Shown: one piece after another, positions 19,244-38,859 of the stretch
Numbering within the stretch: position 1 is the stretch's first letter
Layout of the letters: each line of letters starts with the position of its first letter
DNA from: Sulfurovum sp.
Lineage (GTDB): Bacteria > Campylobacterota > Campylobacteria > Campylobacterales > Sulfurovaceae
Assembly: GCA_027012955.1 (NCBI GenBank)
Contig: JALUYL010000057.1
Span: 1 to 50,830, forward strand
Length of the DNA stretch: 50,830 bases
Reading direction: 5' to 3'
Notes under the pieces: model-generated
Seen by the model: the letters and a program-made list of their open reading frames with translations, nothing else
Database searches by the model: none
What the model was told of the DNA's origin: nothing
Made by a program: the position numbers and the translations under genes

Positions 19244-19274
19244 ATCATACAAGATATTTGTTACTTTAGTGTTA
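19244..19274 (-). promoter_or_regulatory. TAACA-N6-TAACA-N9-TATGAT promoter (box 5)
   Basis: Reverse complement TAACACTAAAGTAACAAATATCTTGTATGAT; upstream of the 58-aa lipoprotein. Confidence 0.75.
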
Positions 19275-19360
19275 GCAGATACTATAATGAAAGATAAGAG
19301 TGAGTGTAGTCCTCGAAAAAGGACTCTGGATAGCGTCAAAAATTTTCTGTAAATTCTTCC

Positions 19361-20095
19361 TCAGTATTTCAGTTTATATATCAACATGAATAGCCCGAAA
19401 AACAGGGGTAGATGAATGAGATAAACGAGTAATGCATGTCTTCCTAAAAAAGAGAGCAGGGTATTAAACTTGTTTTTTGAGGTCCAAAATGTGTGTTTGA
19501 AAAAGGTGTAACTCCATCCATACTGTGTCATAGCGATACCTATAAGCACTGCGGCAAACCATGGAAAAGGGTGGAGTACATCTTCTGTGTAGGTAGGGGG
19601 AAGATGCAGTGGGGTTTTAAGCAGTGCAAAGAGCCACTGTGTATGTAACCATCCTTTAGCACTGCCTATAAGGATGACAATAGCAGTGCCTAATGCCAAT
19701 CTTGGGTAAGGTAAAAAAGGAAGACCCAGCCATGAAGCAAGCAAGATGAAATGTATAATGCCAAAGTAGACCCATGAATGAGGAAAGACAAAGTAAGTTG
19801 CTACCGTAATTACAAGAGAAACTGCACCCAAAATGCGTGTACGTTTGAACATCTTAGACCAAAGTATTGTGGGACTATGAACCAAGGTTAAACTGATGCC
19901 TACAGAGACTAAAAACATTGCGACGATGAGGTAACGAAAGTTCACCCAAAATATCTCTTTATGTACTGCAACTGATATAAAATGAAAGTAATTCAAATCA
20001 AAAGTGATATGAAATACCATCATAAATACGATAGCCCATCCCTTAAATACATCAAGTCCAATAAGGCGTCTTTTTAGTAGAGAAGAGGAGTGCAT
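19361..20095 (-). CDS. DUF1624-type membrane protein (heparan-alpha-glucosaminide N-acetyltransferase catalytic-like)
   Basis: RRLIGLDVFKGWAIVFMMVFHITFDLNYF; multi-TM. Confidence 0.8.
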   Translation of the reverse strand: MHSSSLLKRRLIGLDVFKGWAIVFMMVFHITFDLNYFHFISVAVHKEIFWVNFRYLIVAMFLVSVGISLTLVHSPTILWSKMFKRTRILGAVSLVITVATYFVFPHSWVYFGIIHFILLASWLGLPFLPYPRLALGTAIVILIGSAKGWLHTQWLFALLKTPLHLPPTYTEDVLHPFPWFAAVLIGIAMTQYGWSYTFFKHTFWTSKNKFNTLLSFLGRHALLVYLIHLPLFFGLFMLIYKLKY

Positions 20096-20197
20096 GAGAA
20101 GCTTCTTTGTATTTAGATAAGCATATTATACACTTAAAACCAAAAGCGTATCACTTAGTTTACATCGATAGTGTGTATGTAATGTGTATATTGGAGG

Positions 20198-20228
20198 TAA
20201 CAAAGTATTAACATATTGTCCATATAAT
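20198..20228 (+). promoter_or_regulatory. TAACA-N6-TAACA-N9-TATAAT promoter (box 1)
   Basis: TAACAAAGTATTAACATATTGTCCATATAAT. Confidence 0.8.
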
Positions 20229-20271
20229 ATGGCTATCATAACGATAAATGTGTGAACATAAAGGAAAAAAT

Positions 20272-20511
20272 ATGCAACAAATCAATGAATTACTTTTAGA
20301 TGAAAACAAGATGGCTTTTCATCCTATGATGGGGAATAGCTATCAGTTAAATGATGTAGGGATAGAAATTTTAAAGTATCTAAAAGAGGGAAAAAAGAAG
20401 CCAGAAATCATCGAGATTTTAGCGGAGCGTTATAGTATCTCTAAAGATGCGCTTTTTATTGATGTAAGTGATTTTATGTCAAAACTTAAAATCTATGGAC
20501 TGATGGTATGA
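20272..20511 (+). CDS. PqqD-like protein (possible RiPP recognition element)
   Basis: 79 aa; GNSYQLNDVGIEILKYLKEGKKKPEIIEILAERYSISKDALFIDVSDFMSKLKIYGL fits the PqqD pattern. Confidence 0.75.
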   Translation: MQQINELLLDENKMAFHPMMGNSYQLNDVGIEILKYLKEGKKKPEIIEILAERYSISKDALFIDVSDFMSKLKIYGLMV

Positions 20512-21521
20512 AAATAGCCATTAGTGGGTTGAACAATACAGATAACCCTGCCCCAGGCATACCTGTTATCAAGAGTTTGCAAGAAAATCATACACTCATT
20601 GGATTTTCGTATGATCCCAATGAACCGGGAAACTTTATGCAGATGGTGGACAAGACATATTTGATGCCTTATCCTTCTTTAGGTTTTGAAGCCTTAAAGT
20701 CTCGTCTATTGGAGATACAGGGAAAAGAGGGTATCGATGCGATTATCCCTAATCTTGATGCAGAATTGCCTTTATATATTAAATATCAAGATGAAATCAA
20801 TGCGATGGGTATACAGCTTTGTTTGCCGTCTGAAGAAAACTTTGAACTTAGAAATAAAAACAAGCTAGATGTACTTTCTAAACAGTTAGATATTACCTAT
20901 CCTAAAACGCATGAGATTAGTTCTTTAGCAGAGCTCGTGAAAATTAGTACAGAAACACAGTTCCCTTTGATGATAAAAGGAAATTACTATAAGGCATACA
21001 AAGTCTATAACTTGGATGCTGCGATAGAAGCTTTTTATAAAATCTCTAACGAATGGGGATTTCCTATTTTGGTGCAAGACGTGGTAGTGGGTGAGGAGAT
21101 AAATCTTGTAGGTGTTGCCGATGGAAAAGGTGAACTAAAGGGTGCCGTAGCCATTAAAAAACTTACAACAACGCAGATAGGGAAAATATGGACAGGGATT
21201 ACTATCCAAAATGAAAAGTTAATTCAAATTGCAAAAGATTTTACAAAATCGACTTCATGGAAGGGACCATTCGAGTTAGAATGTATGATTAATATGAACC
21301 ATATCTATATGATTGAAATCAATCCTCGTTTCCCTGCATGGTTGTATTTTGCTACGTCTATAGGCATTAATTTACCTCAAATGCTTACGGACATTATGGC
21401 AGGTAAAGAGGTAGAAACAAAGCTTGAATACCCTTCAAATAAAATGTATGTACGTTTTGTAGATGAATTGGTCACAGATTTTACAGATTTTACAACGCTC
21501 TTAAGTAAAAAAGAATTATAG
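20508..21521 (+). CDS. ATP-grasp enzyme (CarB-like)
   Basis: FPLMIKGNYYKAY, FELECMINMNHIYMIEINPRFPAW; ATGA overlap with the PqqD-like gene. Confidence 0.85.
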   Translation: MKIAISGLNNTDNPAPGIPVIKSLQENHTLIGFSYDPNEPGNFMQMVDKTYLMPYPSLGFEALKSRLLEIQGKEGIDAIIPNLDAELPLYIKYQDEINAMGIQLCLPSEENFELRNKNKLDVLSKQLDITYPKTHEISSLAELVKISTETQFPLMIKGNYYKAYKVYNLDAAIEAFYKISNEWGFPILVQDVVVGEEINLVGVADGKGELKGAVAIKKLTTTQIGKIWTGITIQNEKLIQIAKDFTKSTSWKGPFELECMINMNHIYMIEINPRFPAWLYFATSIGINLPQMLTDIMAGKEVETKLEYPSNKMYVRFVDELVTDFTDFTTLLSKKEL

Positions 21522-21527
21522 GAAAGA

Positions 21528-22856
21528 ATGATGACACACACATATGAAAAACCAACGATAAACAAAATTGATTTTGCTATGGCTTCAAAATATGGAAGCC
21601 CTTTAAAAACACAAAAAATTAGACAGCACATAGATGGTGTCAATTTAGATACATTAACCGAGCAGTTTGGCAGTCCATTGTTTGTTTTTTCTCAGCAAAC
21701 GATAGAAGAGAAATACCATGCACTCAATACAGCATTTACATCACGTTACCCTGATGTACAGTTCTCGTGGAGTTATAAAACCAATTATCTCAATGCCATT
21801 TGTAAAATCTATCATGACTTAGGCTCTATCGCAGAGGTTGTGAGTGAATTTGAATATCAAAAAGCCAGAGCATTAGGTGTAGAAGGAAAAGATATTATTT
21901 TCAATGGTCCATATAAGCCAAAAGAAGACTTGAAAATAGCAGTACAGGAAGGGGCTAAGATACATGTAGATAACCTTTTTGAACTTGGAGACTTGGAAGA
22001 AATAGCAGATGAGTTAGGCATACGTATTCCCGTAGCCATACGTATCAATATGGATACAGGGGTATATCCTCAATGGAGTCGTTTTGGTTTTAACTTTGAA
22101 AATGGAGAAGCTTTTGATGCCATTGAACGCATGTATGACAAAGGAAAAGTGTATTTGGTAGGTATCCATAGTCATATTGGTACCTTTATGTTAGATGCAA
22201 ATGCCTATAGAGTTGCTACGATGAAAATCATGCAACTCAAAACGCAAGTAGAGTCAGCATTTAATGCCCAAATAGACTACATCGATTTAGGGGGTGGATT
22301 TGCTAGTAAAAGTAACCTAAAAGGTGTGTATCAGTCTGCTGAGGTAATAGTCCCAACTGTTGATGATTATGCTGAAGCCATTACAGGTGCCATTTATGAG
22401 TTTAATACCAGTGACACTCTGCCAAAACTCTACTTGGAAACAGGTCGCCATCTCATCGATGAGGCAGGCTACCTTTTAACGTCTGTACAAGGTTGGAAAC
22501 GTTTTCCTGATGGTAAAAAAGGCTATGTCTTGGACGCAGGTGTCAATCTACTGTATACTTCTACCTGGTACAATTTCAACATCGAACTTGATAAAAGATA
22601 TGAAGGAGAAAATGAACCTTCTATGCTTAACGGTCCACTGTGTATGAATATTGATATTATTGAAGAGAACCTTATGTTACCTGCACTCGACAGAGGAAGT
22701 ATTTTGAGTATCTCACCTGTGGGTGCATATAACTATACGCAAGCTATGCAGTTTATCCGCTACAAGCCAGCGGTTGTACTCATAGATACTAAGGGTAAAC
22801 CCAGACTCATCAAAGAAGTAGATGATTTAGCAACCATTAATTATAAAGAGGTTTAA
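21528..22856 (+). CDS. PLP-dependent decarboxylase, fold type III (LysA/Orn-decarboxylase family)
   Basis: FSWSYKTNYL (PLP Lys), HSHIGTF, DLGGGFAS, ETGRHLIDEAGY, GPLCMNIDII, GAYNYTQAM. Confidence 0.9.
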   Translation: MMTHTYEKPTINKIDFAMASKYGSPLKTQKIRQHIDGVNLDTLTEQFGSPLFVFSQQTIEEKYHALNTAFTSRYPDVQFSWSYKTNYLNAICKIYHDLGSIAEVVSEFEYQKARALGVEGKDIIFNGPYKPKEDLKIAVQEGAKIHVDNLFELGDLEEIADELGIRIPVAIRINMDTGVYPQWSRFGFNFENGEAFDAIERMYDKGKVYLVGIHSHIGTFMLDANAYRVATMKIMQLKTQVESAFNAQIDYIDLGGGFASKSNLKGVYQSAEVIVPTVDDYAEAITGAIYEFNTSDTLPKLYLETGRHLIDEAGYLLTSVQGWKRFPDGKKGYVLDAGVNLLYTSTWYNFNIELDKRYEGENEPSMLNGPLCMNIDIIEENLMLPALDRGSILSISPVGAYNYTQAMQFIRYKPAVVLIDTKGKPRLIKEVDDLATINYKEV

Positions 22857-22867
22857 ACTAAAAAGAC

Positions 22868-24895
22868 ATGAAATCTTACAAAGTCTTAATGAAAGAAATA
22901 TTAAAACCCTATAGCGCCATTTTATTTTTAAACAATAGAGTGGCAGGTGTGTTAGTCCTTGCTATTACATTTTTAAACCCCTCTGTGGCATTAAGTGGTT
23001 TGATTGCTGTGCTGACTACGGTACTGTTTGCAAAACTTATAGAGATAAAAGACCACTATTTGGAATATGGTTTTTATATTTATAACTCATTGCTTGTAGG
23101 CATGGGTATAGGGTATATCTTTGAAGTTTCTTTTAAAAGCATTGTACTCATCGCCGTGGCGTCTGCTTTTGCATTTATGTTTTCTTTTATGCTAAACAGG
23201 TTGTTTAGTCTGTATAAAATACCTATCTTGTCACTGCCCTTTTCTATCGTTACGATGTTTGTTTATTTGGCATCTTTAAAGTACTCAACACTCTATACAA
23301 CCCTTGTCAATCATGCCACAATGTATGACATAAGTCTACCCTTAATACTCAGTGCTTATTTCAAATCTGTGGGAACCATATTTTTCTTACCCAATAATTT
23401 AGCAGGGCTATTGTTACTTCTTGTGGTACTGTACTTTTCTAGAATTATTTTTCTGATGTCTACTGTAGGCTTTTATTTTGGAGTATTGAGTCATAGCTTC
23501 TTCATAGGTTCTTTTGAACAAGCACTGTATGATCCTTATGCGTTCAATTATATTTTGGTAGCTATTGCTTTGTGTGGTATTTTTTTATTACCAACTTTAA
23601 AAAACTTTATCATCAGTCTGATAGCGATAGTCATGAGTGTATTATTGACAGATGCCATTGGGACGTTGTTTCATTATTATGCTATCCCTGTATTTACCTT
23701 ACCGTTTAACCTTACGGTGATTACGGTTATATTTATTTTATCTATTACGTACTACAAAGAGTTTAACTATAACATCAAGTCAACACCCGAAGCATCGCTT
23801 TCACATTATTTAAATACTATATTTAGATTTGGGGCTATCCATGCAAAGGTAGCATTGCCTTTTTCAGGAGAATGGTCCGTGTATCAAGCCTTTGATGGGG
23901 AGTGGACACATAAAGGGAAATATGCTTATGCCTATGATTTTGTGAAACGCAAAAAAGGCAAAAGTTATCAGGGGGAAGGCGTACATTTAGATGAATACTA
24001 TTGTTTTGGCGAATCTGTATTGTCTCCTATCGATGGATATGTAGTGGATGTCCGTCATGACTTGGAGGACAATTATATAGGCAGTATCGATAGGGTCAAT
24101 AACTGGGGGAACTATATTATACTTCGTAGTCCAAGTGGTTATTTTATAGAGATTAGCCACTTGATGCAACACTCACTGAATGTCAATATAGGAGATTATG
24201 TAAAGGTGAACACGCCTTTAGCCAAATGTGGAAACAGTGGCTACTCCCCTGAACCACACATCCATATACAGGTACAAGATGTGGGTGTTTTAGGAGGGTT
24301 TACTAGAGAGTTTTGTTTTACTGAGTATTATCAAGAGAATGTCTTAGTCTCTAATGCAGTACCTAAACATGATGAAAATGTCTCTTCTGTGATTATAGAT
24401 AAAAGTATTCAGTCTAAACTATTGTTTATTTTAGATGAAAAATATACGTATGATATCTTCATTGATGAAAAGTATATAGATAGCTATACTTTTAGCGTAA
24501 AAATGAATACTTTGGGGGAGTTTTACTTTGAAGACTACGAACACAATAAACTCTACTTTAACAGTACTCCGACACAGTTTTATTTTTATCACTATAGTGG
24601 TGTTGAATCTCATTTAAAAAGAATGTTTATTCTCTCCCCGCGTATTCCGTTTGTACGTAAGGACTTTGTGACCTACGAAGATTACCTTCCTCTCAACCTT
24701 ATGAAGGGGAGTTTTCAAGTGCTCATGTTAGAACTAGCATCTATCGTACAGAAAAATCTTGCAAGGCTAGAACAGCAGTATACGCTCACTTCTGAGACAA
24801 TACGCTCAGAAAATGGCAAAGTAACCTTGGAGTCAAATAAAAAAGGCTTTAAAACTATAGCGTATAAAAATGTAGTACTGCGTCGGGTAGCTTAG
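22868..24895 (+). CDS. Fusion: N-terminal urea-transporter-like domain and C-terminal M23 (LytM-type) peptidase domain
   Basis: Multi-TM UT-like N-half (YIYNSLLVGMGIGY); C-half KYAYAYDF...SPIDGYVVDV...NWGNYIILRSPSGYFIEISHL...HIHIQ. Confidence 0.85.
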   Translation: MKSYKVLMKEILKPYSAILFLNNRVAGVLVLAITFLNPSVALSGLIAVLTTVLFAKLIEIKDHYLEYGFYIYNSLLVGMGIGYIFEVSFKSIVLIAVASAFAFMFSFMLNRLFSLYKIPILSLPFSIVTMFVYLASLKYSTLYTTLVNHATMYDISLPLILSAYFKSVGTIFFLPNNLAGLLLLLVVLYFSRIIFLMSTVGFYFGVLSHSFFIGSFEQALYDPYAFNYILVAIALCGIFLLPTLKNFIISLIAIVMSVLLTDAIGTLFHYYAIPVFTLPFNLTVITVIFILSITYYKEFNYNIKSTPEASLSHYLNTIFRFGAIHAKVALPFSGEWSVYQAFDGEWTHKGKYAYAYDFVKRKKGKSYQGEGVHLDEYYCFGESVLSPIDGYVVDVRHDLEDNYIGSIDRVNNWGNYIILRSPSGYFIEISHLMQHSLNVNIGDYVKVNTPLAKCGNSGYSPEPHIHIQVQDVGVLGGFTREFCFTEYYQENVLVSNAVPKHDENVSSVIIDKSIQSKLLFILDEKYTYDIFIDEKYIDSYTFSVKMNTLGEFYFEDYEHNKLYFNSTPTQFYFYHYSGVESHLKRMFILSPRIPFVRKDFVTYEDYLPLNLMKGSFQVLMLELASIVQKNLARLEQQYTLTSETIRSENGKVTLESNKKGFKTIAYKNVVLRRVA

Positions 24896-24901
24896 TCGGG
24901 G

Positions 24902-24932
24902 TAACAATGAAGTAACATTAGTGGTTTATAAT
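24902..24932 (+). promoter_or_regulatory. TAACA-N6-TAACA-N9-TATAAT promoter (box 2)
   Basis: TAACAATGAAGTAACATTAGTGGTTTATAAT. Confidence 0.8.
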
Positions 24933-24960
24933 GTGGGTGAAATTACACAAGGAAACACAA

Positions 24961-25832
24961 TGAAACTAACACACAAACTACTCCTCGGAACCCTAATGAT
25001 GACAGGGTCACTTTTTGCAGAAGTGACAACACTTCTGCCTTATGCAGCAAGCCTACAGTATGATAGCTCTCCCAGCAAGTCTACTAAAGACAATGGAAAG
25101 ATGGCAGGTCTTTATTTTAGTTATGGAAACTTAGATTATCTTTTTGAAATGGATTATGCAAAAACAAATATAAAATATAAAAATGCAACAACAAGTAATT
25201 TGGTACAAGATGATTTTACAGTTGCGTATAGCTTTTACTCTGACACACACTTTTTGAAACTAGGCTTACATCATATTAGTACAACCGATACTGACCTTGG
25301 AAATGGCAATACATTTATCCTGACATTTGGAGAAAACAGATGGGATGGATATGACAAATATAGTTATGCATTAGAAACATATTATTCTGTGTTTAAAGAT
25401 GGTTTTAATGATAGAAATATATCTAAAAAGATAGCGTTGCTTCAAATTACACCGAGTTTTACTTTTTCAAAATCCATAGATATCAATACACGTAATACAC
25501 TTCATATAGCAGGAAACTGGGTACATACCAATGATTATACGAAAAATAATTATTATTCATATGAGGTGCAAGATACACTCTACTATAAGAACTTTTTTGT
25601 AAATGCTAAATTTTATGGTGGTCAAATGATTACAGGTGTAAAAGATGGTGGAAATACAGTATTTAACACAAAAGATGTACTCAATTCAGGGTATGGTGTA
25701 AAATTAGGGTATTATTTTACACCTAGTAGTATTTTGGCTATTGGTTATGAAGTAAACAAGTATAGAGAGTTTTTAAGTACTGCAGATGGCTCATACAGTG
25801 TGGCACTTTTGACGTACACATATAGTTTTTAA
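24961..25832 (+). CDS. Outer-membrane beta-barrel protein
   Basis: Signal peptide MKLTHKLLLGTLMMTGSLFAEV, alternating aromatic strands, terminal Phe (TYTYSF); ORF-track start 24921 lies inside the promoter. Confidence 0.75.
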
Positions 25833-25844
25833 GAAAGAGATATT

Positions 25845-26456
25845 TTGAAGTATATTGTCCTTTTATTTTTAACCCTTTCTTTGTATGCTGAGCATGTAGA
25901 TGATGAGATTAAAAATCTTTACACAAAATCTTATGATTATGAAGGGGTAGGGAACTACAGTGAAGCCTTAAAAGTACTGGCTCCACTGTATGCAAAATAC
26001 CCTAAAGGATATACATTAAATTTACGTTTTGCTTGGCTTTTTTATCTGGATAAAAAGTATAAAAATGCTGAAACATATTATAAAAGTGCAGCCTTAACTA
26101 GCCCTTATTCTATAGAAGCGAAGTTAGGACTTATCTCTGTATACTTGGCAACCGCTTCTTTTACAGATGCAGAATTACTTAGCAATGAGATACTCAAAAA
26201 AGACTATTATAATTACTATGCCAATATGTATGCCACCCAAGCACTCATCGCACAGAAAAAATACCCAGAAGCATTGTCCAACGTACAAAAAATGTTGGCA
26301 CTCTACCCTACAGATGTAAGTTACTTAGAACTTTTGGCTGTCATTTATAAAGCAACCAAACACGACTACTTGCATGAACTCTATGAAAACATATTGATTC
26401 TTGATCCCAATAATGTATTTGTAAAAAAGATTTTATCTGCACCAAAACATATTTAA
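25845..26456 (+). CDS. Exported TPR protein
   Basis: Signal peptide; repeated TPR-like helices (NAETYYKSAALTSPYSIEAKLGLISVYL). Confidence 0.8.
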   Translation: MKYIVLLFLTLSLYAEHVDDEIKNLYTKSYDYEGVGNYSEALKVLAPLYAKYPKGYTLNLRFAWLFYLDKKYKNAETYYKSAALTSPYSIEAKLGLISVYLATASFTDAELLSNEILKKDYYNYYANMYATQALIAQKKYPEALSNVQKMLALYPTDVSYLELLAVIYKATKHDYLHELYENILILDPNNVFVKKILSAPKHI

Positions 26457-26507
26457 ATGTACACACTCTATGCACGTTAAAGCTCTATCATAATCCTATA
26501 TCAATAG

Positions 26508-28889
26508 ATGAAGGAGTGTATGATGGATGTAAAAATTAAAGATATCGTATGTGGCATGGATATTACAAAAGATACAAAATTTCAAAGCATAGAAAATAAT
26601 GAAACGTATTATTTTTGTTCTACGAACTGTCAAGGAAAGTTTGACAAGCATCCATATCTCTATATACATACACATGAGAAAGAAGAGGACTGTCCTTCTT
26701 GTGCGACGTTAGAATATGCAGATATATCGAAAAAGAAAGTAAATAAACCGGAATACACTGATGCTATATATACCTGTCCTATGCACCCTGAAGTTCAACA
26801 AAAAGGACCAGGGGCATGTCCTAAATGTGGGATGGCACTTGAACCTATGGTGGCTGAGCTTGGCGAGGAAGACACCTCTGAGCTAGATGATATGACACGC
26901 CGTTTTAAAGTAAGTAGTATTTTGGCATTTCTGGTGTTTCTCTTAGCGATGACGGCTGACCTTATGCCAAGTTTATTGCCTTCATGGTTGGAAATGTCTT
27001 TGGTACAGTGGATTATGTTTGTATTCGCAACACCTGTGGTACTTTGGGGTGGATGGCCATTTTTTGTAAGAGGTGTAAATTCTGTTAAGACATGGAATCT
27101 TAATATGTTTACACTTATTGCACTAGGCGTTAGTGCTGCGTATAGTTATAGTTTAGTAGCACTCTTCCTACCCTCTATTTTCCCTCCTCAAATGCAGATG
27201 CAAACATCTACAGGGGTGGGACTTGTGGATGTCTATTTTGAAGCTGCTGCAGTCATCGTAGCACTTGTTTTACTAGGGCAGGTACTTGAACTGCGTGCAC
27301 GTTCTCAAACCAATACAGCCATACAGATGCTACTTGGACTTGCTCCAAATACTGCACGACTTGTAAAAGCCGATGGTACAGAGATGGATGTACCTTTAGA
27401 AGATGTAGTAGTGGGTGATATCTTACGTATACGACCGGGAGACAAGATACCTGTAGATGGTGTAGTCACTAAGGGTGAAAGTAATATAGATGAATCTATG
27501 GTGACGGGGGAACCTATAGCTGTTGCTAAAAAAGAGGGTGATAAAGTGATAGGTGCAACGGTTAATGCCACAGGTTCTTTACTCATACAGGCAGAAAAAG
27601 TCGGTGCAGATACTTTACTTTCTCAGATTGTAGATATGGTTGCGAATGCACAGCGTTCACGTGCTCCTATACAAAAACTAGCAGATATTGTTTCTGGATA
27701 TTTTGTACCTATTGTTGTCCTTATCGCAGGTTTAGCCTTTGCGGGGTGGTATATTTGGGGACCTGAACCTAAATTAGCATATGCAGTAGTAAGTGCAGTA
27801 GCTGTGCTTATCATCGCTTGTCCTTGTGCTTTGGGTTTGGCTACTCCAGTTGCTATTATGGTGGGTACTGGAAAAGGTGCTTCTATGGGTGTGCTTATCA
27901 AAAATGCCGAGTCTTTAGAGGTGCTGGAAAAAGTAGATACGCTAGTGGTAGATAAAACGGGAACACTTACAGAGGGTAAACCTAAACTTGTTACTGTTGA
28001 GGTAGAAGAAGGAGTAGATGAAAATGTACTTTTAAAGGTCGTTGCAACACTAGAACTCTCCAGTGAACATCCTTTGGCAGAAGCCATTGTAGATGGTGTT
28101 AAAGAAAGAGGTATCAACCTTAGTAAAACAGAAAACTTTAACTCTATCACAGGTGAAGGTGTGACAGGTGAAGTAGATGGGATGAAGGTAGCGATTGGTA
28201 ATACTAAACTCTTTGATTCACTTGACATAGTAGCAGGACACTTACCAAACAAAGCAGAAAACTATAGAAAAGAAGGGCAAACCATTATGCTCATAGCACT
28301 TGATGGAAAAGCTGCGGGTATCATAGGTGTGATGGATCCTATCAAGGAGAGTACGCCTGAAGCGATTGCGCAACTTCATGAAGAAGGTATCACCGTAGTT
28401 ATGCTTACAGGAGACAATAGAACCACTGCAGAAGCAGTTGCCTCTAAACTAGGCATAGACAGGGTGCAAGCAGAAGTTTCACCAGAACAGAAGTCTCAAG
28501 TAGTCACAGCACTACAAGAAGAAGGTAAAACTGTAGCCATGGCAGGAGATGGTGTAAATGATGCTCCCGCTTTAGCCAAGGCGCATGTAGGTATAGCTAT
28601 GGGTACAGGTACCGATGTTGCGATGGAAAGTGCAGGAGTGACGTTGGTGAAAGGTGACTTAACAGGTATCATCCGTGCTATAAAGCTAAGCCACGGTACG
28701 ATGTCTAACATCCGTCAAAACCTTTTCTTTGCCTTTATTTACAATGCCATAGGTGTACCTATCGCTGCGGGTGTCTTATATCCAGTATTTGGCATCTTAC
28801 TCTCCCCTATAATCGCAGCAGCTGCGATGAGTTTTTCCTCTGTTTCTGTGATAGCTAATTCCTTGCGGTTGAGGAATTTGGAGTTGTAA
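26508..28889 (+). CDS. copA: Copper-translocating P1B-type ATPase with N-terminal YHS and heavy-metal-binding domains
   Basis: [23 protein letters not shown] (YHS), [62 protein letters not shown] at 26523 may be the true start. Confidence 0.92.
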
Positions 28890-28903
28890 AAGGAAGCTTA
28901 AAA

Positions 28904-28959
28904 AAGAAGTATAATTCATAATTAAGCTAAATTAATATAATATATGAATTATACTTCTT
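28904..28959. promoter_or_regulatory. 17-bp perfect inverted repeat bracketing the hipBA-type promoter
   Basis: AAGAAGTATAATTCATA (28904-28920) / TATGAATTATACTTCTT (28943-28959), 22-bp spacer. Confidence 0.85.
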
Positions 28960-28971
28960 ATGGAGAGATGA

Positions 28972-29208
28972 TTGAATATACTTGAACTTGGACAGCAGAT
29001 TAAAAAACTTAGACAAGAGAAAAAGTGGTCACAGGATATGCTTGAACAGTATTCAGGTATTAGCAAACGTACGATAAGTAAAATAGAAAACGGGTTTATA
29101 GATGAAGTAGGTATTAAAAAGGTGGTGACAATTCTTGATTTGTTAGGTCAGGAACTCTCCTTGCGACCTAAAGGTAGACCTAGAACGTTAGAAGAGTTAC
29201 AAGAGTAG
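28972..29208 (+). CDS. HipB-like XRE-family antitoxin/repressor
   Basis: HTH_3 pattern IKKLRQEKKWSQDMLEQYSGISKRTISKIENG; TTG start. Confidence 0.85.
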   Translation: MNILELGQQIKKLRQEKKWSQDMLEQYSGISKRTISKIENGFIDEVGIKKVVTILDLLGQELSLRPKGRPRTLEELQE

Positions 29209-29218
29209 AGGGAGCAAG

Positions 29219-30358
29219 ATGAAAGTATTTGTTAATAGTGAGGAAGTAGGTCATCTGCATAGAGAAGAAAAATATGTCTTTAATTATAGTACAGATGCCA
29301 AAGGTATTATAAGCCTTACCATGCCTATTCGTAGTGAGAGTTGGACAAGTGAAACTTTGCATCCTATTTTTCAAATGAATATGCCCGAAGGGGCATTGCG
29401 TGAGGTGATTAAAAATCATTTTTCCAAAATAGAAAAAATGGACGATATGGGTTTTTTGAAGATTATTGGTCCTTATGTTTTGGGGCGTGTTAAATTTCAA
29501 GAGATTGCAATCTCTCAAAGTAATTTGAGTTTAGATGAGATACTTAACTCAGAAAAAGAGAATCTTTTTGAAGAACTTATGGAACGCTTTGCTATACGCT
29601 CAGGTGTTTCTGGTGTGCAACCTAAATTATTGCTCACTGCACAAAATAAAACGACGATGCATTTTGAACACTACATTGTAAAATCATGGCAGGCAGAGTA
29701 CCCCCAACTGGCACTCAATGAATACTTTTGTATGCGTGCAATACAGCATGCTGGACTCGAGACACCTGAGTTTTACATTAATGATGATTTGTCTCTTTTT
29801 GTGATGAAACGTTTCGATATCATGGAAAATGGAAAATACTTAGGCTTTGAAGATATGTGTGTCCTGACAGGGCGAGGTACCGATGATAAATATGAAGGCT
29901 CTTATGAAGAGGTAATAAGGGTGATAAAGGATGTTGTTTCTCCCCCTCATAGAAAAAGAGCCATAAAATCATTGTTTACAGCACTTGTCATGAACCATTT
30001 TTTACGTAATGGTGATGGACATCTTAAAAACTATGGGGTGCTTTATGAAAATGATTATGAAGATGCCCGTTTGGCACCTATTTACGATGTGATAACAACG
30101 ACATGCTACATAAAAAAAGATATTCCTGCACTGCGTATGAGTGATGCAAAACTATGGTGGAAACAAAAAACCTATAAAACATTTGCCAAACTTTCTTGTG
30201 GATTGACAGATAAGGAGTATGGTGAGGTTATACAGAAATGTCAAAATGCTATAGCCATAACTAAAAAAGAAATACAATCCTATACATGCAAAGACGAAAA
30301 GGTGAAAGATTTTTTGGTGCATCTTGGTAGTTGTTGGCGTGATGGGTTTGAGAGATAA
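29219..30358 (+). CDS. HipA-family kinase (putative toxin)
   Basis: SGVQPKLL, HYIVKSW, NHFLRNGDGHLKNYGVL, LAPIYDVITT. Confidence 0.9.
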   Translation: MKVFVNSEEVGHLHREEKYVFNYSTDAKGIISLTMPIRSESWTSETLHPIFQMNMPEGALREVIKNHFSKIEKMDDMGFLKIIGPYVLGRVKFQEIAISQSNLSLDEILNSEKENLFEELMERFAIRSGVSGVQPKLLLTAQNKTTMHFEHYIVKSWQAEYPQLALNEYFCMRAIQHAGLETPEFYINDDLSLFVMKRFDIMENGKYLGFEDMCVLTGRGTDDKYEGSYEEVIRVIKDVVSPPHRKRAIKSLFTALVMNHFLRNGDGHLKNYGVLYENDYEDARLAPIYDVITTTCYIKKDIPALRMSDAKLWWKQKTYKTFAKLSCGLTDKEYGEVIQKCQNAIAITKKEIQSYTCKDEKVKDFLVHLGSCWRDGFER

Positions 30359-30425
30359 TACTTTATGTGCACATACTATACACATAAAAGCATTATGATA
30401 GTAGCAGAAAAATAGAGGAAAAAAT

Positions 30426-31079
30426 ATGAAAATACTACTCATGGAAGATGACCCCGTTTTAGGGGAGATAGTGGCAGATTATCTGCAAGGATTTTATGAA
30501 ACAGATAGGGCATTTGACTCTGCTGAGGCGCAAGAATTCATTGATGAAAAGCGTTATGACTTGTTCATCTTTGACATTAATGTTCCAGGGAAGTCAGGTG
30601 TGGAACTACTGGAAGAGTTACGTTCTTTTAATGATACAACACCTGCTATTATCATCACAGCGTATGCCGATACAAAACACTTAAAAGAGAGCTTTGATGC
30701 GGGAGCACATGATTACATACGTAAGCCTTTTGAGCTAGAAGAGTTGAAGCTTCGCATTGAAAAGAGTAGGGTATTGTTTCATATAGAGCAGGATGTACCC
30801 ATGCAGATTAGTGAAACGTTGACGTACTACCCTCGTAAACATCTTGTAAGTGATGGAAAAAAAGAGCAAGGGTTACGCCCAAAAGAAGCAAAGATTTTAG
30901 ACTACTTCATCGCACATCCTCAAAGGCTCATTAGTCAAGAAGAGTTGGTGCAGAACATTTGGGGGTTTGATGAACTTCCAAGTGATGCAACCTTGCGTTC
31001 ATACATTAGAAAGCTTAGAGAGGTGATAGGGAGTGAAAAGATAGTCACACAAAGAGGTTTAGGCTACCGATATGAATGA
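30426..31079 (+). CDS. OmpR-family response regulator
   Basis: MKILLMEDDPVLGEI...FDINVPGKSG...RKPFE; C-terminal wHTH. Confidence 0.92.
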   Translation: MKILLMEDDPVLGEIVADYLQGFYETDRAFDSAEAQEFIDEKRYDLFIFDINVPGKSGVELLEELRSFNDTTPAIIITAYADTKHLKESFDAGAHDYIRKPFELEELKLRIEKSRVLFHIEQDVPMQISETLTYYPRKHLVSDGKKEQGLRPKEAKILDYFIAHPQRLISQEELVQNIWGFDELPSDATLRSYIRKLREVIGSEKIVTQRGLGYRYE

Positions 31080-32247: not shown

Positions 32248-32925
32248 ACCTATTTGATATCCTGTCTTACTATTGTTAAGTATTATTTCAGGCGTAGTTG
32301 CCTTTCTGATACGATAGACAAGTGAACGTAACGCTTGGAGTGACATGGGTCTTTCCCATAGTGTATCAAGTATCGCTTCAGCTTGAAGTGAACAATGTTT
32401 ATTTTTGCAAAGTAAGGCGATGAGATTGAGTGCTTTGGATCCGAGGTAAACCTTTTTTGAATGGTGAAATAATGCATGTTTGTCTGTATGAAAACTATAA
32501 TCTCCAATGAGCCTAACAATAGTTGACGGAAAGTTTTTTTTCGTGTTCAGTAAGAGGTCGTTAATATGCGATTGTGCTAGAGCGAGTGTAGCGAGTATCT
32601 CTTTGTCTCGGTAAGGTTTGAGTAAATATCCAAAAGCTTTAGAATCTACAGCAAAATCTATCATTTCTTTATCTGAATAGGCTGTAAGAAAAACAATTAA
32701 AATTTTGGGATTATATCTGCTTATTTCCAGTGCTGCATCACAACCTGATATATTATCTTCAAGCATTACATCCATGAGTATGACATCAGGGTTTTCTTGT
32801 TTTGCAATACGTATGGCATCTGCACCTGTTTCAACACTTTCAAGTACTTCATATCCTTCGAATTCAAGTAATTTTTTAAGATAATTTGCTGGAATTATCT
32901 CATCTTCCACGATAAGAATTTTCAT
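32236..32925 (-). CDS. Response regulator with C-terminal winged-helix domain
   Basis: MKILIVEDEIIPANYLKK...DVILMDVMLEDNISG...LLKPYRDKE. Confidence 0.88.
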   Translation of the reverse strand: MKILIVEDEIIPANYLKKLLEFEGYEVLESVETGADAIRIAKQENPDVILMDVMLEDNISGCDAALEISRYNPKILIVFLTAYSDKEMIDFAVDSKAFGYLLKPYRDKEILATLALAQSHINDLLLNTKKNFPSTIVRLIGDYSFHTDKHALFHHSKKVYLGSKALNLIALLCKNKHCSLQAEAILDTLWERPMSLQALRSLVYRIRKATTPEIILNNSKTGYQIGLKI

Positions 32926-34046
32926 TCAATGTCTCCTTGAAAAGTAATCTCATAGATAAGTCCCTCGTTATGTTGTATCGTTAAATCAGCTTTGAGTTGT
33001 TTCACTGACATTTTGATGAGTTTTTGACCAAACCCTTCATTTTCTTCTTGTATACCAATGCCATTATCTTGGTAGATAAACTTATAATAATATTCATGTT
33101 TTTGTAAACAAATATCTATCATACCTTTTTGATTTTTAAAAGCATATTTTATAGAATTCGTCATCAGTTCATTGACAATAATCCCAAATTGTATCATAGA
33201 CTCAATATTGAGTTCCAATGGTATGATATCTAGGGTTATGTCAACGGCATCACTATAGGATTCTGTAATCAGAATATGTTTTGAAAGTTTGCTAATATAG
33301 GTTTTAAAGTTGATATGTTCTAAATCCTCACTTTGATAGAGTACCTCATGTACCATGGCAATAGACTCAATACGTAGTTTATTTTGGTTGATGAGTTTCT
33401 GCAATTCGTCAATATTACTTTCAAACTTTTCAAGTCCAAGTATAGAGGAAACAATATTAAGATTGTTTTTAACACGGTGATGTATTTCTCTGAGTAAAAA
33501 AGCTTTTTGTTGGTGTGCTTTTTGTAGCTCAATATATGACTTTTTGATAGATTGGTTATAGACTAAACTTAATCCCAAGATAAAGAAAAAAAGTAAAAAG
33601 AAGGCACTTAAAAAGTCAACGTCATTGAGGTAATGGTATTGTGATTTGTGTAAAAACCCATAGAGCATTACAATAAAAAACAGGGCTAAAAAAAGAGAAC
33701 CATGATAGAGAAAGTCTTTATATTCTAGTAGTATTGACGCAGTAAGAGGTACAAGGAGTATGAGTAAAATATGTAAACTATATTGAAAATAGATAATAAA
33801 AGCAAAGATAACAAATGTTGCAAGCCAAAAGAGAGAAATGATGGTGAGTGAAAAATGCCGTTTTTTTTCATAGTGGCGTATAATAAAATACCCTATAAAA
33901 AGTGCTATAGCATCTATAATACTCACCATATATTCATGTGTATAAATACGTATAAATGCAGATAAAAGGGCTCCTGTAATAAAAATAATGAGAACACCAT
34001 AGAGGTATTGTTCTTTATCAGAAGTATAATCTTTTTTATTAAGCAT
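32922..34046 (-). CDS. Membrane sensor histidine kinase (HisKA_2/HWE-like)
   Basis: LREIHHRVKNNLNIVSSILGLE; IVNELMTNSIKYAF; DNGIGI; N-terminal multi-TM. Confidence 0.9.
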   Translation of the reverse strand: MLNKKDYTSDKEQYLYGVLIIFITGALLSAFIRIYTHEYMVSIIDAIALFIGYFIIRHYEKKRHFSLTIISLFWLATFVIFAFIIYFQYSLHILLILLVPLTASILLEYKDFLYHGSLFLALFFIVMLYGFLHKSQYHYLNDVDFLSAFFLLFFFILGLSLVYNQSIKKSYIELQKAHQQKAFLLREIHHRVKNNLNIVSSILGLEKFESNIDELQKLINQNKLRIESIAMVHEVLYQSEDLEHINFKTYISKLSKHILITESYSDAVDITLDIIPLELNIESMIQFGIIVNELMTNSIKYAFKNQKGMIDICLQKHEYYYKFIYQDNGIGIQEENEGFGQKLIKMSVKQLKADLTIQHNEGLIYEITFQGDIE

Positions 34047-34082
34047 TAGTATCCTTGCGCGTGATTTTTATTATACCATAAT

Positions 34083-35008
34083 GAAACAGAACACTTACGT
34101 CATTATTTTTTCTTATAATATAAACAAGATGAATTCGAATTTCAAGCGAATTCACCCAACTGAAAAAAAAGGATAAAAAATGAAAACAATCATACAAACG
34201 CTCATACTCACACTAAGTTTCGTCTTGTTTACCGCTTGTGGAGGAAGTGGTAATACTACGACAAATACAGGAACATCAACAACCACTACTATTACCTATA
34301 ATGGTACGACTTATGGCTTTGTCACATCTCCCTATACAGGCAAAGTATGGCTAGACAGAAACCTAGGTGCTGCACGGGTATGTACCAGCTTCAATGATAC
34401 AGCCTGTTATGGTGACTATTATCAGTGGGGGAGAAACTTTGATGGACATCAAGATAGTCTATCAGCCACGACAACGACACTTGCCACTAATGTCAATAGT
34501 GCAGGTAGCAGTTTTATACTTTCGGGATTTCCATTCGATTGGGCATCCGTAGATGCTAATGGGTCTATACGCTCAGCAAACTGGTCTAAAACAGATGGCT
34601 CTTCTGTCTGTCCTGTAGGATTTAGGGTACCAACCATTACAGAACTAAACGCAGAAACTATAAACAATGGTGTAACCGATAATGCCACTGCCTTTGCAAA
34701 CTTCCTGAAACTGCCCTCTGCTGGTTACCGCGTCGGCTCAGCTCCCTTGTCCAATCAGGGTTCGTGGGGCTATGTGTGGGCTAGTTCGGCCAGTGGTTCT
34801 TCTTCGCGCCGCGTCAACTTCGACAGTGGCACTGCGTACGCGTACTACGACGCACGTGTCAATGGCTTATCTGTACGTTGTTTGAAGAATTAAGATTTAG
34901 TACTTGCAAGCTTCAGCTCTCTTGAAATTTTTTTGAAGTGATATGTCCTAAATTATCACTTTAATAGAGTACTTCCTCTCGTGACGACGTTTAACGTCGT
35001 CACGAGAG
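34083..35008 (+). repeat. Tandem duplication unit 1 (promoter, leader, lipoprotein gene)
   Basis: GAAACAGAACACTTACGTCATTATTTTTTCTTATAATATAAACAAGATGAATTCGAATTTC... recurs at 35009. Confidence 0.9.
34180..34893 (+). CDS. FISUMP/C-type-lectin-like lipoprotein, paralog 1, with DGR-variable-region-like C-terminus
   Basis: Lipobox LFTAC; YNGTTYGFVTSPYTGKVWLDRNLGA...GFRVPTITEL...NGLSVRCLKN. Confidence 0.8.
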   Translation: MKTIIQTLILTLSFVLFTACGGSGNTTTNTGTSTTTTITYNGTTYGFVTSPYTGKVWLDRNLGAARVCTSFNDTACYGDYYQWGRNFDGHQDSLSATTTTLATNVNSAGSSFILSGFPFDWASVDANGSIRSANWSKTDGSSVCPVGFRVPTITELNAETINNGVTDNATAFANFLKLPSAGYRVGSAPLSNQGSWGYVWASSASGSSSRRVNFDSGTAYAYYDARVNGLSVRCLKN

Positions 35009-35011
35009 GAA
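34973..35011. repeat. 39-bp near-perfect palindrome at the duplication junction
   Basis: TTCCTCTCGTGACGACGTT-T-AACGTCGTCACGAGAGGAA; 19-bp perfect arms. Confidence 0.95.
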
Positions 35012-35865
35012 ACAGAACACTTACGTCATTATTTTTTCTTATAATATAAACAAGATGAATTCGAATTTCAAGCGAATTCACCCAACTGAAAAAAAAGGAT
35101 AAAAAATGAAAACAATCATACAAACGCTCATACTAACACTAAGTCTCGTCTTGTTTACCGCTTGTAGTGGTAGAGGTAATACTACGACAAATACAGGAGC
35201 AACCACAACCACTACTATTACCTATAATGGTACGACTTATGGTTTTGTCACATCTCCCTATACAGGCAAAGTATGGCTAGACAGAAACCTAGGTGCTGCA
35301 CGGGTATGTACCAGCTTCAATGATACAGCCTGTTATGGTGACTATTATCAGTGGGGGAGAAATGCTGATGGGCATGAGAACTCTATAAGTGGTACTGTAG
35401 GTGTACAGGCTACAGATGTAAACAATACGGGCAACACCTTTTTTGTCATAGGGTTTAGTGATTGGGCATCAGTAGATGTTAATGGAAGCCAACGCTCTGC
35501 AAATTGGTCTAAAACTGATGGATCTTCTGTCTGTCCTATAGGGTTTAGAGTGCCGACACTTTTTGAGTTAAAAGCAGAAACGTTAGATCAGAATGTAACC
35601 AATAGTGCCACAGCCTTTGCAAATTTTCTTAAACTTCCGTCTGCTGGATACCGAAGCTACATCGATGGCTCTATGGGTAATTTAGATTTGGCGGGATTTT
35701 TGTGGGGTAGTCCAGGTGTTGGTGTGACCTCTTTCGCATTTGTTGGTGCAGGGTGGGGCAGTGGATCTAGTGGAAATGGCTTATCTGTACGTTGTTTGAA
35801 GAATTAAGATTTAGTACTTGAAAGCTTTATCTCTCTTGAAATTTTTTTGAAGTGACATTGGAATC
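35009..35865 (+). repeat. Tandem duplication unit 2
   Basis: Same promoter/leader/5' coding sequence as unit 1; similarity extends to about TTTTTTTGAAGTGA beyond the stop codon. Confidence 0.85.
35106..35807 (+). CDS. FISUMP/C-type-lectin-like lipoprotein, paralog 2
   Basis: N-terminal half and C-terminal NGLSVRCLKN nearly identical to paralog 1; divergent between LPSAGYR and NGLSVRC. Confidence 0.8.
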   Translation: MKTIIQTLILTLSLVLFTACSGRGNTTTNTGATTTTTITYNGTTYGFVTSPYTGKVWLDRNLGAARVCTSFNDTACYGDYYQWGRNADGHENSISGTVGVQATDVNNTGNTFFVIGFSDWASVDVNGSQRSANWSKTDGSSVCPIGFRVPTLFELKAETLDQNVTNSATAFANFLKLPSAGYRSYIDGSMGNLDLAGFLWGSPGVGVTSFAFVGAGWGSGSSGNGLSVRCLKN

Positions 35866-35925
35866 TAAAGTCGGTCATGGGACAACTTTTAGGTTGAGAT
35901 TTGGTCACCTCTAATAAAAATAGGG

Positions 35926-35956
35926 TAACATTGTACTAACAAAAGTATTTTATAAT
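35926..35956 (+). promoter_or_regulatory. TAACA-N6-TAACA-N9-TATAAT promoter (box 3)
   Basis: TAACATTGTACTAACAAAAGTATTTTATAAT. Confidence 0.8.
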
Positions 35957-35978
35957 ACCAAACAATAAGGAGTAAACG

Positions 35979-36419
35979 ATGATGATTAAATATTTTTTAA
36001 TCGTACTGACTACTTTCCTTATGTTTGGTACTAGTGCTTACGCACAAACAAATACGGGAAAAGAAGAGACTATAAAAGCGCTTGTAGAAAAAGTAAAACA
36101 AGCTCCCCCCTCGCAAAAGAGGGTTCTTATGAACCAGTTAAAGGTTAAACTGCGTTCTATGAGTAAAGAAAATAGACAACAAGTCATGATGGACTTGCGA
36201 CATGCCTTTAACGCAGAACGTCGTATACAAGGTGTAAAAGGGATGACAACATCCATGCAGCAAAGTTCTGCATCGATGATGGATGCGTCTAAAAACATGA
36301 AAGATGCCATGAACCAAGGCATGATGAATAGAAACAATATGTCTGGGGGCGGAATGCCCGGAGGTGGCATGCCAGGTGGTGGTATGAACCCAAGTCCAAA
36401 TATGGCTAAAGGACACTAG
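35979..36419 (+). CDS. Exported Met/Gly-rich protein (putative metal binding)
   Basis: Signal peptide; C-terminal MNQGMMNRNNMSGGGMPGGGMPGGGMNPSPNMAKGH. Confidence 0.75.
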   Translation: MMIKYFLIVLTTFLMFGTSAYAQTNTGKEETIKALVEKVKQAPPSQKRVLMNQLKVKLRSMSKENRQQVMMDLRHAFNAERRIQGVKGMTTSMQQSSASMMDASKNMKDAMNQGMMNRNNMSGGGMPGGGMPGGGMNPSPNMAKGH

Positions 36420-36422
36420 TTA

Positions 36423-37196
36423 ATGACCTTGCGTATGCTGATTGTACTGTGTTTTATGGTAGTTACCATGGGGCATGCATACGTATATAGTGATTACGAC
36501 ATAGATGGGGTGGAGGACAGTAAAGATGCCTGCCCCAATACCCCTTTCGACCTCACAGTCGATGAATATGGTTGTGCAGAAGGAAGCAAAGCAAAAGGCA
36601 CATGGACATTACTTACAGGTACCATTACCGGTATCGATAAAGATGCAGATACACTTACAAACTTTTTACTTTATGTAAATTATCGTTATAAAAGTTGGGA
36701 TTTCTCAGCCTCTACGTTTAATGATATCCAAAATACTACGACACAGCTACCAAACACGCTATATCTTACAACTGGGTACCGATTTAAGCCCGTAGAAAAT
36801 ATACAGATGAAAGTGTCTGTAGGAACAAAACAGTCAGATGTGCAAGATGACTATTATCTTTCGACAAATGTAGATTATGCTTTAGATGAAGATAAAAATC
36901 TTTTTCTTTACTACGGCTATACGGTTGCACAAGACAGTAGTACACAAAAATATGATAACTTTCATACACTGTCTTTGGGTGTGGGGTCTGCGTTGACTGA
37001 CTATTGGTACAGTGCTGTTTCTTATGACTACTCTGGTGCAACCTTACGCAATACAGATGACTATAAGGTATTAAGCTGGGTCAATACATTTGCATTGACA
37101 CCCAAATATTATTTTGTTACCAACTATAGTTATGGACTCAATACAGCAACAACAGACCATACTATCAGTGTACAGTTTGGTGTGAAGTTTGACTAA
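36423..37196 (+). CDS. Beta-barrel envelope protein with N-terminal calcium/TSP3-like motif
   Basis: Signal peptide; DYDIDGVEDSKDACPNTPFDLTVDEYGC then amphipathic strands. Confidence 0.7.
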   Translation: MTLRMLIVLCFMVVTMGHAYVYSDYDIDGVEDSKDACPNTPFDLTVDEYGCAEGSKAKGTWTLLTGTITGIDKDADTLTNFLLYVNYRYKSWDFSASTFNDIQNTTTQLPNTLYLTTGYRFKPVENIQMKVSVGTKQSDVQDDYYLSTNVDYALDEDKNLFLYYGYTVAQDSSTQKYDNFHTLSLGVGSALTDYWYSAVSYDYSGATLRNTDDYKVLSWVNTFALTPKYYFVTNYSYGLNTATTDHTISVQFGVKFD

Positions 37197-37818
37197 GCTT
37201 TTACTTCTTGAAGATGACCCAAATCTATCTAAAACACTTGTAAAGTACTTAAGCAAGCATGGTTATGATGTTGACTGGGCAAAACATGGAGAAGAAGCGT
37301 TGGACTTTGCATATGAGCATAGTTATGCACTCTATCTATTTGATATTAATGTACCTCTTTTAAATGGGGTTGATTTACTGGCATCTTTACGTGAAGCAGA
37401 AGATTTTACACCTACTATCATCATCTCGGCGCAAATAGACATCGATTCGGTAACAAAAGGGTTTGTCGCTGGGGCAGATGACTATGTCAAAAAGCCTTTT
37501 GACCCAGAAGAGTTACTGGTACGTATCAAAGCAAAAACAGCGGTGCTTAAAGATACGCTTACGCTTAGAGATTATGCTCTTGACAGACATACGCAAACGT
37601 TGAGCTATAAGGGAGAACCACTCTATATGGGAGAGGTTCAAAAAAATATATTTATGCAACTGCTTGTAAACTATCCAAATCCTGTGATAAAAGACGTGTT
37701 ATTGGATTGTTTGGAAAAACCCACAGATTTGGCGCTACGTGTCAATATGGCAAAGCTCAAGAAAAATATTAAGCTCGATATCTCATCCGTTCGAGGAGTA
37801 GGTTATAAAATTATCTGA
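37189..37818 (+). CDS. OmpR-family response regulator
   Basis: LLLLEDDPNLSKTL...FDINVPLLNG...KKPFDPEELLVRIKAK. Confidence 0.92.
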   Translation: MTKLLLLEDDPNLSKTLVKYLSKHGYDVDWAKHGEEALDFAYEHSYALYLFDINVPLLNGVDLLASLREAEDFTPTIIISAQIDIDSVTKGFVAGADDYVKKPFDPEELLVRIKAKTAVLKDTLTLRDYALDRHTQTLSYKGEPLYMGEVQKNIFMQLLVNYPNPVIKDVLLDCLEKPTDLALRVNMAKLKKNIKLDISSVRGVGYKII

Positions 37819-37855
37819 AAAAGAGTCACTGTTTAAAAGTTTTTTACTTTTTCTT

Positions 37856-38842
37856 GTGATGATAGAACTTTTTTTAATGTTTATTTTCTATCATTACTAT
37901 AAGATAGAAGAGGAACATATTCATGACAATATCTTTTTGGAAATGAAAAACTATAGTCTTTCGTTTGATGATGACCGTTTTGATATCGATATCATACCTA
38001 GAAAAAATCAAGCGTTGTATGAGCTAAATCAAGATGATACGAGTCTATACATTTTGGTGCCGTTTCAAGATTCTAAGGAAGATTTATTAAAGATATTTTA
38101 TCCTAAAAAGCACTATAGTGTCTTGCTCAGCGCCTTACAAAAAAACCTCTCTATACAGTTTACTCTACTCTCACTCATTGCGATGATTTTAGCGATATCT
38201 GCTGCATTTTACACATTAAAACCCATACGTTCAGCATTGCGCTTACTTGAAGATTTTATAAAAGATATCATACATGACCTCAATACCCCATTGACGTCTA
38301 TACTTATAAACCTTAAAATGATAGACACACAAAATGAAGAGATAGAAAGTATCTCACGTTCGGCTAAAAACATAGCGATGTTACATCAAAATCTTGACAG
38401 TTACCTACGAGAAAACACGATACATTCTGATACCTTCGTACTCAAAGCATTGATGGAAGAGCAGGTCGCATTTTTTGCACCATTGTATGACTATCTTACT
38501 TGGGAAGTAGACTTAGATACACGTACAGTAGTAACCGATAAAAATGCCTTTACTCGCATCATTTACAACCTTTTGAGTAATGCTTGTAAATACAATACCT
38601 CTAATGGGAAACTTTCCATCTATATAAAGCAGAACACTTTGGTGATAGAAAATGATAGTTATGGCATTGCCCAACCGCATAAGGTCTTTGAACGTTTTTA
38701 TAAAGAGAGTGAAAGAGGGTTAGGGATAGGTTTGCACATCGTTGAGAAGTTATGCGAGGAACTTTCTTTGACTAAAACATTCGAGATAGAGGGTACTTTG
38801 GTACGTGTATCACTTGATTTGGAAGAGTTAACATCGAGTTAA
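37856..38842 (+). CDS. Sensor histidine kinase (true start probably upstream at a non-ATG codon)
   Basis: DIIHDLNTPLTSI H-box; YNLLSNACKYN N-box; GLGIGLHIVEKL; frame open from 37802. Confidence 0.88.
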   Translation: MMIELFLMFIFYHYYKIEEEHIHDNIFLEMKNYSLSFDDDRFDIDIIPRKNQALYELNQDDTSLYILVPFQDSKEDLLKIFYPKKHYSVLLSALQKNLSIQFTLLSLIAMILAISAAFYTLKPIRSALRLLEDFIKDIIHDLNTPLTSILINLKMIDTQNEEIESISRSAKNIAMLHQNLDSYLRENTIHSDTFVLKALMEEQVAFFAPLYDYLTWEVDLDTRTVVTDKNAFTRIIYNLLSNACKYNTSNGKLSIYIKQNTLVIENDSYGIAQPHKVFERFYKESERGLGIGLHIVEKLCEELSLTKTFEIEGTLVRVSLDLEELTSS

Positions 38843-38859
38843 CAAAACCTTTTTATAAT
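38829..38859 (+). promoter_or_regulatory. TAACA-N6-TAACA-N9-TATAAT promoter (box 4)
   Basis: TAACATCGAGTTAACAAAACCTTTTTATAAT, overlapping the HK stop codon. Confidence 0.8.

Follow-up and report, generated by a model that had tools for sequence, protein, structure and literature searches.

A 50,830-nucleotide stretch of Sulfurovum sp. DNA (contig JALUYL010000057.1; hereafter, the window) contains five exact matches to the promoter motif TAACA-N6-TAACA-N9-TANNNT, and these sites are very probably the activator boxes of a single OmpR-family response regulator (RR), the predicted product of 37189–37818, which is encoded next to its putative histidine kinase (HK) in the same stretch. Computation established the motif and its spacing, showed it to be conserved, and linked it to this RR. 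All five sites had been proposed in an earlier sequence-only reading of this DNA and were recovered as exact matches at the coordinates and on the strands given there; the motif is confirmed as real. Half-sites paired as TAACA-Nx-TAACA occur in the window five times at N6 and never at x = 2–5 or x = 7–15, and TANNNT follows at N9 in 5/5 of these pairs, as expected from the claimed 11-bp period and distance of exactly 9 bp to the −10. The first ATG lies 19–35 nt behind the −10 in 5/5, in line with the claim of a start codon shortly downstream, and the fixed 11-bp direct repeats, ending 9 bp short of the −10, agree with the proposed OmpR/PhoB layout.

Trinucleotide-Markov sequences of window length contained a mean of 0.005 full matches and 0.105 half-site pairs, compared with the five seen. 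Across the assembly, exact matches numbered seven (five in the window, one on contig C76, and one on contig C107) versus one for a reversed-pattern control, with five of the seven clustered inside 20 kb; genus-wide, 137 matches were counted versus seven for the reversed control. The excess was gone when one mismatch was permitted assembly-wide (18 matches vs. 15 in the control), and the signal is therefore confined to exact sites. Among 98 distinct motif sites read in the window and related genomes, 94 have, no more than 300 nt downstream, an ATG-initiated open reading frame (ORF) of 50 aa or longer, usually with about 28 nt between −10 and ATG, and just eight lie inside an ORF of at least 150 aa. 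Most loci in this set were chosen via the N9 pattern; a less biased test of spacing comes from 27 direct repeats found without any −10 requirement at loci encoding orthologs of the 37189 RR (26 with a preceding G or C, plus the window box at 38829), where TANNNT stands at exactly 9 bp in 26/27, while the next-commonest offset is seen eight times. The notion that the repeats are chance occurrences or a dispersed, non-regulatory element has the shortness of the core in its favor and nothing else; given the counts in the window and genus-wide, the differing spacers, and the placement of 94/98 sites ahead of an ATG ORF, we rejected it as having next to no probability. A motif at chance frequency and mostly inside genes had been named in advance as grounds for dismissal, and the scan instead shows one far above chance and mostly intergenic.

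The 37189 RR has a receiver domain (PF00072, 86.6 bits) with the phospho-acceptor Asp in an LFDINVP motif. PF00486 alone fell below threshold for its winged helix, which is recognized through NCBIfam OmpR-family models covering residues 3–208, nearly the full length, together with an RGVGYK wing; the recognition helix reads PTDLALRVNMAKLKKNI. The protein scored 90 bits with the heavy-metal RR model (cztR/silR/copR, TIGR01387), short of the 279-bit cut-off, and its intact receiver match and adjacent HK set it apart from the HP1043 type, an orphan with a degenerate receiver. RRs that are 47–50% identical to it were also seen in metagenome-assembled genomes (MAGs) of Hydrogenothermaceae and Aquificaceae (L187, L188, and L189); no box of the TAACA type was seen in the DNA fetched for those loci.

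In an RR tree, orthologs of the 37189 RR form clade A (100/100 support), separate from a sister clade B, which includes an RR on contig C11 of the same assembly (G000), and from clade C, the type of the RR on contig C76. Clade A RRs (58–80% identity) are present in eight relatives (G001, G002, G008, G013, G015, G017 with two, G027, and G028), all of which share one operon order, from a Met-rich or related secreted protein via the barrel and the RR to the HK. In all eight, too, one box lies ahead of the first operon gene and a second coincides with or closely follows the HK 3′ end, with differing spacers; as in the window, the latter box overlaps the HK end in most of them. The contig carrying the second G017 copy (C36) begins just before the RR, and no box lies downstream. 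Among seven further clade A loci, taken from public records of uncultured Sulfurovum, Campylobacteraceae, and Campylobacterales MAGs, exact TAACA boxes following a G or C are present at four and TAATA or TAACG variants at two; the remaining locus, a short one, has no box. Clade A-type boxes were additionally observed before genes for small secreted Tyr/Gln-rich, KYQYQHQYGENSGQGQQ-like proteins (L105, L261, L065, and L086, in G015, G028, G013, and G002, respectively).

The bases flanking the half-sites distinguish the boxes linked to clade A from those linked to clade C. We compared 20 class A sites, which belong to clade A operons or, in the same genomes, stand ahead of genes for paralogous small secreted proteins, with 32 class C sites selected by their downstream gene. 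The base before the first half-site is G or C in 20/20 class A sites, and the base before both half-sites is T in 32/32 class C sites; leave-one-out log-odds separate the classes completely (7.3 to 26.7 for class A, −27.4 to −0.6 for class C), and the five window sites, at +9.5 to +23.6, all score in the class A range. At least three G/C-TAACA sites are present in 9/9 clade A genomes vs. 1/28 other genomes of the genus (Fisher p = 8e-8; 3–5 G/C-type sites per genome with clade A, a mean of 0.5 in the other 28), and the association persists beyond 5 kb from the RR (p = 0.01), while T-type sites show none with clade A presence (p = 0.59); because the genomes are related, these p-values overstate independence. 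Two genomes scored as lacking clade A, G005 and G009, each have a G/C site at a contig end before a Met-rich gene, and their RR may have been lost to assembly. The sixth class A-like site of the Sulfurovum sp. genome (contig C107, site 9599, L090; log-odds +6.5) precedes a gene for a 492-aa Laminin_G_3 (concanavalin-like) protein.

The C76-type RR of clade C, a putative copper-uptake regulator, might itself bind the window boxes, with the clade A RR merely lying close to some of them. Loci of clade C RRs do have TAACA-N6-TAACA boxes before genes for a TonB-copper receptor and TonB, as well as near NosZ, and the helix core ALRV....LKK is common to both clades. Against this, the flanking bases divide the two classes without exception, the window sites score with class A, and it is G/C sites, not T sites, that go with clade A; we consider this explanation very unlikely. 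Slightly less improbable, and still doubtful, is that clade A and clade C RRs have overlapping sets of boxes, so that the window promoters integrate two copper-related signals. The identical TAACA core and geometry, the T-type flanks of the box at 38829, and the coexistence of a putative copper-uptake regulon with multicopper oxidase, Cu-ATPase, and Met-rich targets would agree with this, whereas the sharp split in flanking bases points to paralogs that act separately.

Other RRs of the window were also considered as binders. The 30426/31072 RR/HK pair lies directly upstream of the operon box in G005 and G027, as does its HK gene in G008; however, no ortholog of 30426 was found in G001 or G028, which have three and five class A-type sites, and orthologs are present in G014, G018, and G023, each without such sites. 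Orthologs of the 46716 RR occur in genomes both with and without class A-type sites. Neither of these two, out of three other RRs in the window (the third being 32236 on the minus strand), tracks the sites, and it is most improbable that one of them is the regulator. Assignment of the boxes to the 37189 RR, the prime candidate of the sequence-only reading, is thus upheld by the way G/C-TAACA sites track its presence, although its exclusivity is not, since paralogs use near-identical boxes.

Besides the relatedness of the genomes, several observations weigh against the assignment of all five boxes to the 37189 RR. The assembly is incomplete (1.72 Mb, 110 contigs, 76% complete). A C76-type RR with a near-identical box is encoded in the same genome, and cross-binding by it is possible; the box at 38829 has T before both half-sites and is class C-like by those bases. 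Non-conservation in orthologous promoters had been proposed as a refuting result, and conservation holds for the boxes at 35926 and 38829 (8/8 clade A relatives). Clade A relatives offer no orthologous promoter with which to compare those at 19244 and 24902, and the box at 20198 is conserved in only one relative, G006, which lacks a clade A RR and where the box is T-type.

Box 4 (35926–35956, plus strand; GTAACA-TTGTAC-TAACA-N9-TATAAT; class A vs. C log-odds +23.6), numbered box 3 in the sequence-only reading, is the promoter of the RR/HK operon. The operon begins with a gene for a secreted, Met-rich helical protein of 146 aa with 20 Met (35979–36419, plus strand), whose orthologs occupy the same operon position at 26–44% identity; its AlphaFold model (mean pLDDT 58, pTM 0.26) was too poor for a fold search. 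A predicted small outer-membrane barrel of 257 aa follows (36423–37196, plus strand), with homologs in clade A operons and only a weak TSP_3 match, and then, on the same strand, the RR (37189–37818) and the cognate HK (37856–38842; HisKA and HATPase_c), which has a short extracytoplasmic loop. The HK stop codon, TAA, sits within the second half-site of box 5 (38829–38859, plus strand; TTAACA-TCGAG-TTAACA-N9-TATAAT; log-odds +9.5). Box 5 precedes a region encoding a lipoprotein domain and a CueO-like multicopper oxidase (38895–41390, plus strand; Pfam/NCBIfam). The two ORFs share one frame and are split by a single in-frame TAA at 39894, and they form a single fused ORF in G008 and G027; the TAA may stem from a sequencing error, a real split, or decay.

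Box 1 (19244–19274, minus strand; CTAACA-CTAAAG-TAACA-N9-TATGAT, an exact match; log-odds +9.7) has as its putative target a Met/Cys-rich lipoprotein of 58 aa (19036–19212, minus strand) with 10 Met, 3 Cys, and an LTGC lipobox, whose ATG is 31 nt behind the −10. The link to a Met/Cys-rich mini-lipoprotein stands, with this ATG ORF replacing the 72-aa model of the ORF list; tblastn found no relatives of the protein in the fetched loci, the only DNA covered. Box 2 (20198–20228, plus strand; GTAACA-AAGTAT-TAACA-N9-TATAAT; log-odds +14.5) precedes the PqqD operon, which has Pfam matches to PqqD-like, ATP-grasp, PLP decarboxylase, and urea transporter-M23 (UT-M23) proteins (20248–24895, plus strand). 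Box 3 (24902–24932, plus strand; GTAACA-ATGAAG-TAACA-N9-TATAAT; log-odds +19.5) lies ahead of genes for a predicted barrel (24960–25832, plus strand; signal peptide and barrel fold assigned by visual inspection) and a TPR protein (25845–26456, plus strand). These are the genes previously assigned to it; the GTG start listed for the first, at 24921, lies inside the promoter, and the ATG is at 24960. A copper-type P-ATPase gene (26508–28889) follows the TPR gene and may be co-transcribed with this unit. The interval separating the Cu-ATPase and 30426 RR genes holds a HipA-like kinase and a small preceding ORF (28972–30358), a possible toxin-antitoxin pair, and a pair resembling it was seen in G017 (L087).

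The set of PqqD, ATP-grasp, PLP decarboxylase, UT-M23, TPR, and barrel genes (20248–26456 in the window; L266, L267, and L268) is conserved across several Campylobacterota families and is apparently undescribed. In G006, G047, and G050, the set forms one cluster that also includes a gene for a degenerate RR-like protein (192–204 aa, with a winged helix and a weak or no receiver match), absent from the cluster of the window. Repeats with an 11-bp period lie upstream of the cluster in all three (TTAACA in G006, TTAAC in G047, and TTTACC in G050), and in the window the set is divided into two units with a class A box on each. The likeliest account of this arrangement is that the PqqD operon of the window changed regulator.

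Class C boxes, TTAACA-N5-TTAACA, precede genes for TonB-dependent copper receptors (TIGR01778 is the best match, but below cut-off) and NosL (PF05573), as well as genes that by sequence reading resemble ExbB, SafE, and PCuAC. Clade C RR genes adjoin TonB/copper receptor genes on C76 and are near NosZ in G013; at L089 (G000:C76) and L080–L083, a C76-type RR was seen near such boxes, which there precede genes for the TonB-copper receptor and NosL, among others. The C76-type boxes probably represent an order-wide copper-acquisition regulon. For clade B-lineage RRs, 8/21 promoters contain TAAYR-N6-TAAYR-N9-TANNNT (at least 9/10 half-site bases) vs. 0.8% of shuffled promoters, a partly circular test, as the consensus was first spotted by eye in some of the tested promoters. 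The recognition helices share ALRV....LK; a position occupied by Tyr in clade C is Asn in most clade A helices, and this residue may be linked to the base preceding the half-site. A tentative generalization, which we would place a little short of even, is that a family of OmpR-type paralogs in Campylobacterota shares a single fixed promoter layout (TAAYR repeats with an 11-bp period and the −10 following after 9 bp), that its regulons are told apart by the base preceding the half-site together with the matching helix residue (G/C and Asn in clade A, T and Tyr in clade C), and that the PqqD/ATP-grasp/decarboxylase/UT-M23 operon was rewired between such regulators.

From the sequence we infer binding, activation, and phosphorylation control by the 37189 RR/HK pair. 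The HK (37856–38842) would phosphorylate the RR, and the phosphorylated RR would bind the two TAACA half-sites, one helical turn (11 bp) apart, as a head-to-tail dimer, so that it occupies the position where a −35 is lacking and assists RNA polymerase at the −10, exactly 9 bp downstream. Occupancy of a repeat over the −35 and recruitment of RNA polymerase by the RR are established for PhoB-type promoters. The units activated in this way would be the RR operon itself, from the Met-rich secreted protein and the barrel to the RR and HK, the downstream gene for the lipoprotein and multicopper oxidase, and three further units (mini-lipoprotein, PqqD, and barrel/TPR); by analogy with SaePQ, the envelope proteins leading the operon may feed back on the HK. 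The signal would most probably be copper, or else a different metal or redox stress at the envelope; copper is suggested because of the multicopper oxidase, the Met-rich proteins, and the nearby Cu-type ATPase. Two findings make copper less certain: the lipoproteins at the HK-end box differ in other relatives (DUF2202 in the three scanned, G001, G013, and G015), and alignment of the HK extracytoplasmic loop showed no obvious Cys/Met/His cluster.

Direct-repeat promoters of OmpR-type RRs are already well known; the proposed regulon in Sulfurovum-like bacteria is new and, for a find made from sequence only, unusually well supported. No prior account of a TAACA regulon in these bacteria was found in the literature searched, which left most subscription journals outside. 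The box yields a DNA code that can be put to the test for two or more paralogous two-component systems, of which one is tied to copper-uptake and nitrous-oxide reduction genes. Specific targets emerge as well, among them Met-rich envelope proteins and a PqqD/ATP-grasp pathway, both uncharacterized, and the system is a natural example of a way in which paralogous regulators may maintain separate regulons. In the same phylum, HP1043/HsrA of Helicobacter pylori is an orphan OmpR-type RR that recognizes TTTAAG-N5-TTTAAG, a repeat with an 11-bp distance between centers that lies chiefly on the coding strand of promoters (PMC5253667), and has a degenerate receiver (PMC8345958). The two systems share a pair of direct repeats with an 11-bp period; however, HP1043 uses another half-site and is an essential orphan, whereas in the window an ordinary RR is paired with an HK and its putative regulon is small and local. 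SaeRS of Staphylococcus aureus binds GTTAA-N6-GTTAA, and saeP and saeQ precede the RR and HK in its autoregulated operon (PMC5083920). The 11-bp period and an autoregulated operon led by two envelope-protein genes recur here, although phylum and half-site differ and SaeP and SaeQ have no known kinship to the Met-rich protein and barrel; the likeness is one of layout, and descent is not shown. The Bacillus subtilis PhoP box consists of TTAACA direct repeats, a class C-like half-site, but it serves the Pho regulon, and no phosphate genes are among the targets here. Within Campylobacterota, Campylobacter jejuni DccRS is an OmpR-type system that activates a handful of genes for periplasmic and membrane proteins; its motif, a direct repeat of TTCAC, differs from the TAACA boxes. 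CrdRS of H. pylori and CusRS/CopRS-type systems are OmpR-type systems of copper homeostasis, and while the bit score of the 37189 RR sets it apart from the CusRS/CopRS type, the multicopper oxidase and Cu-ATPase genes found here suggest a similar physiology.

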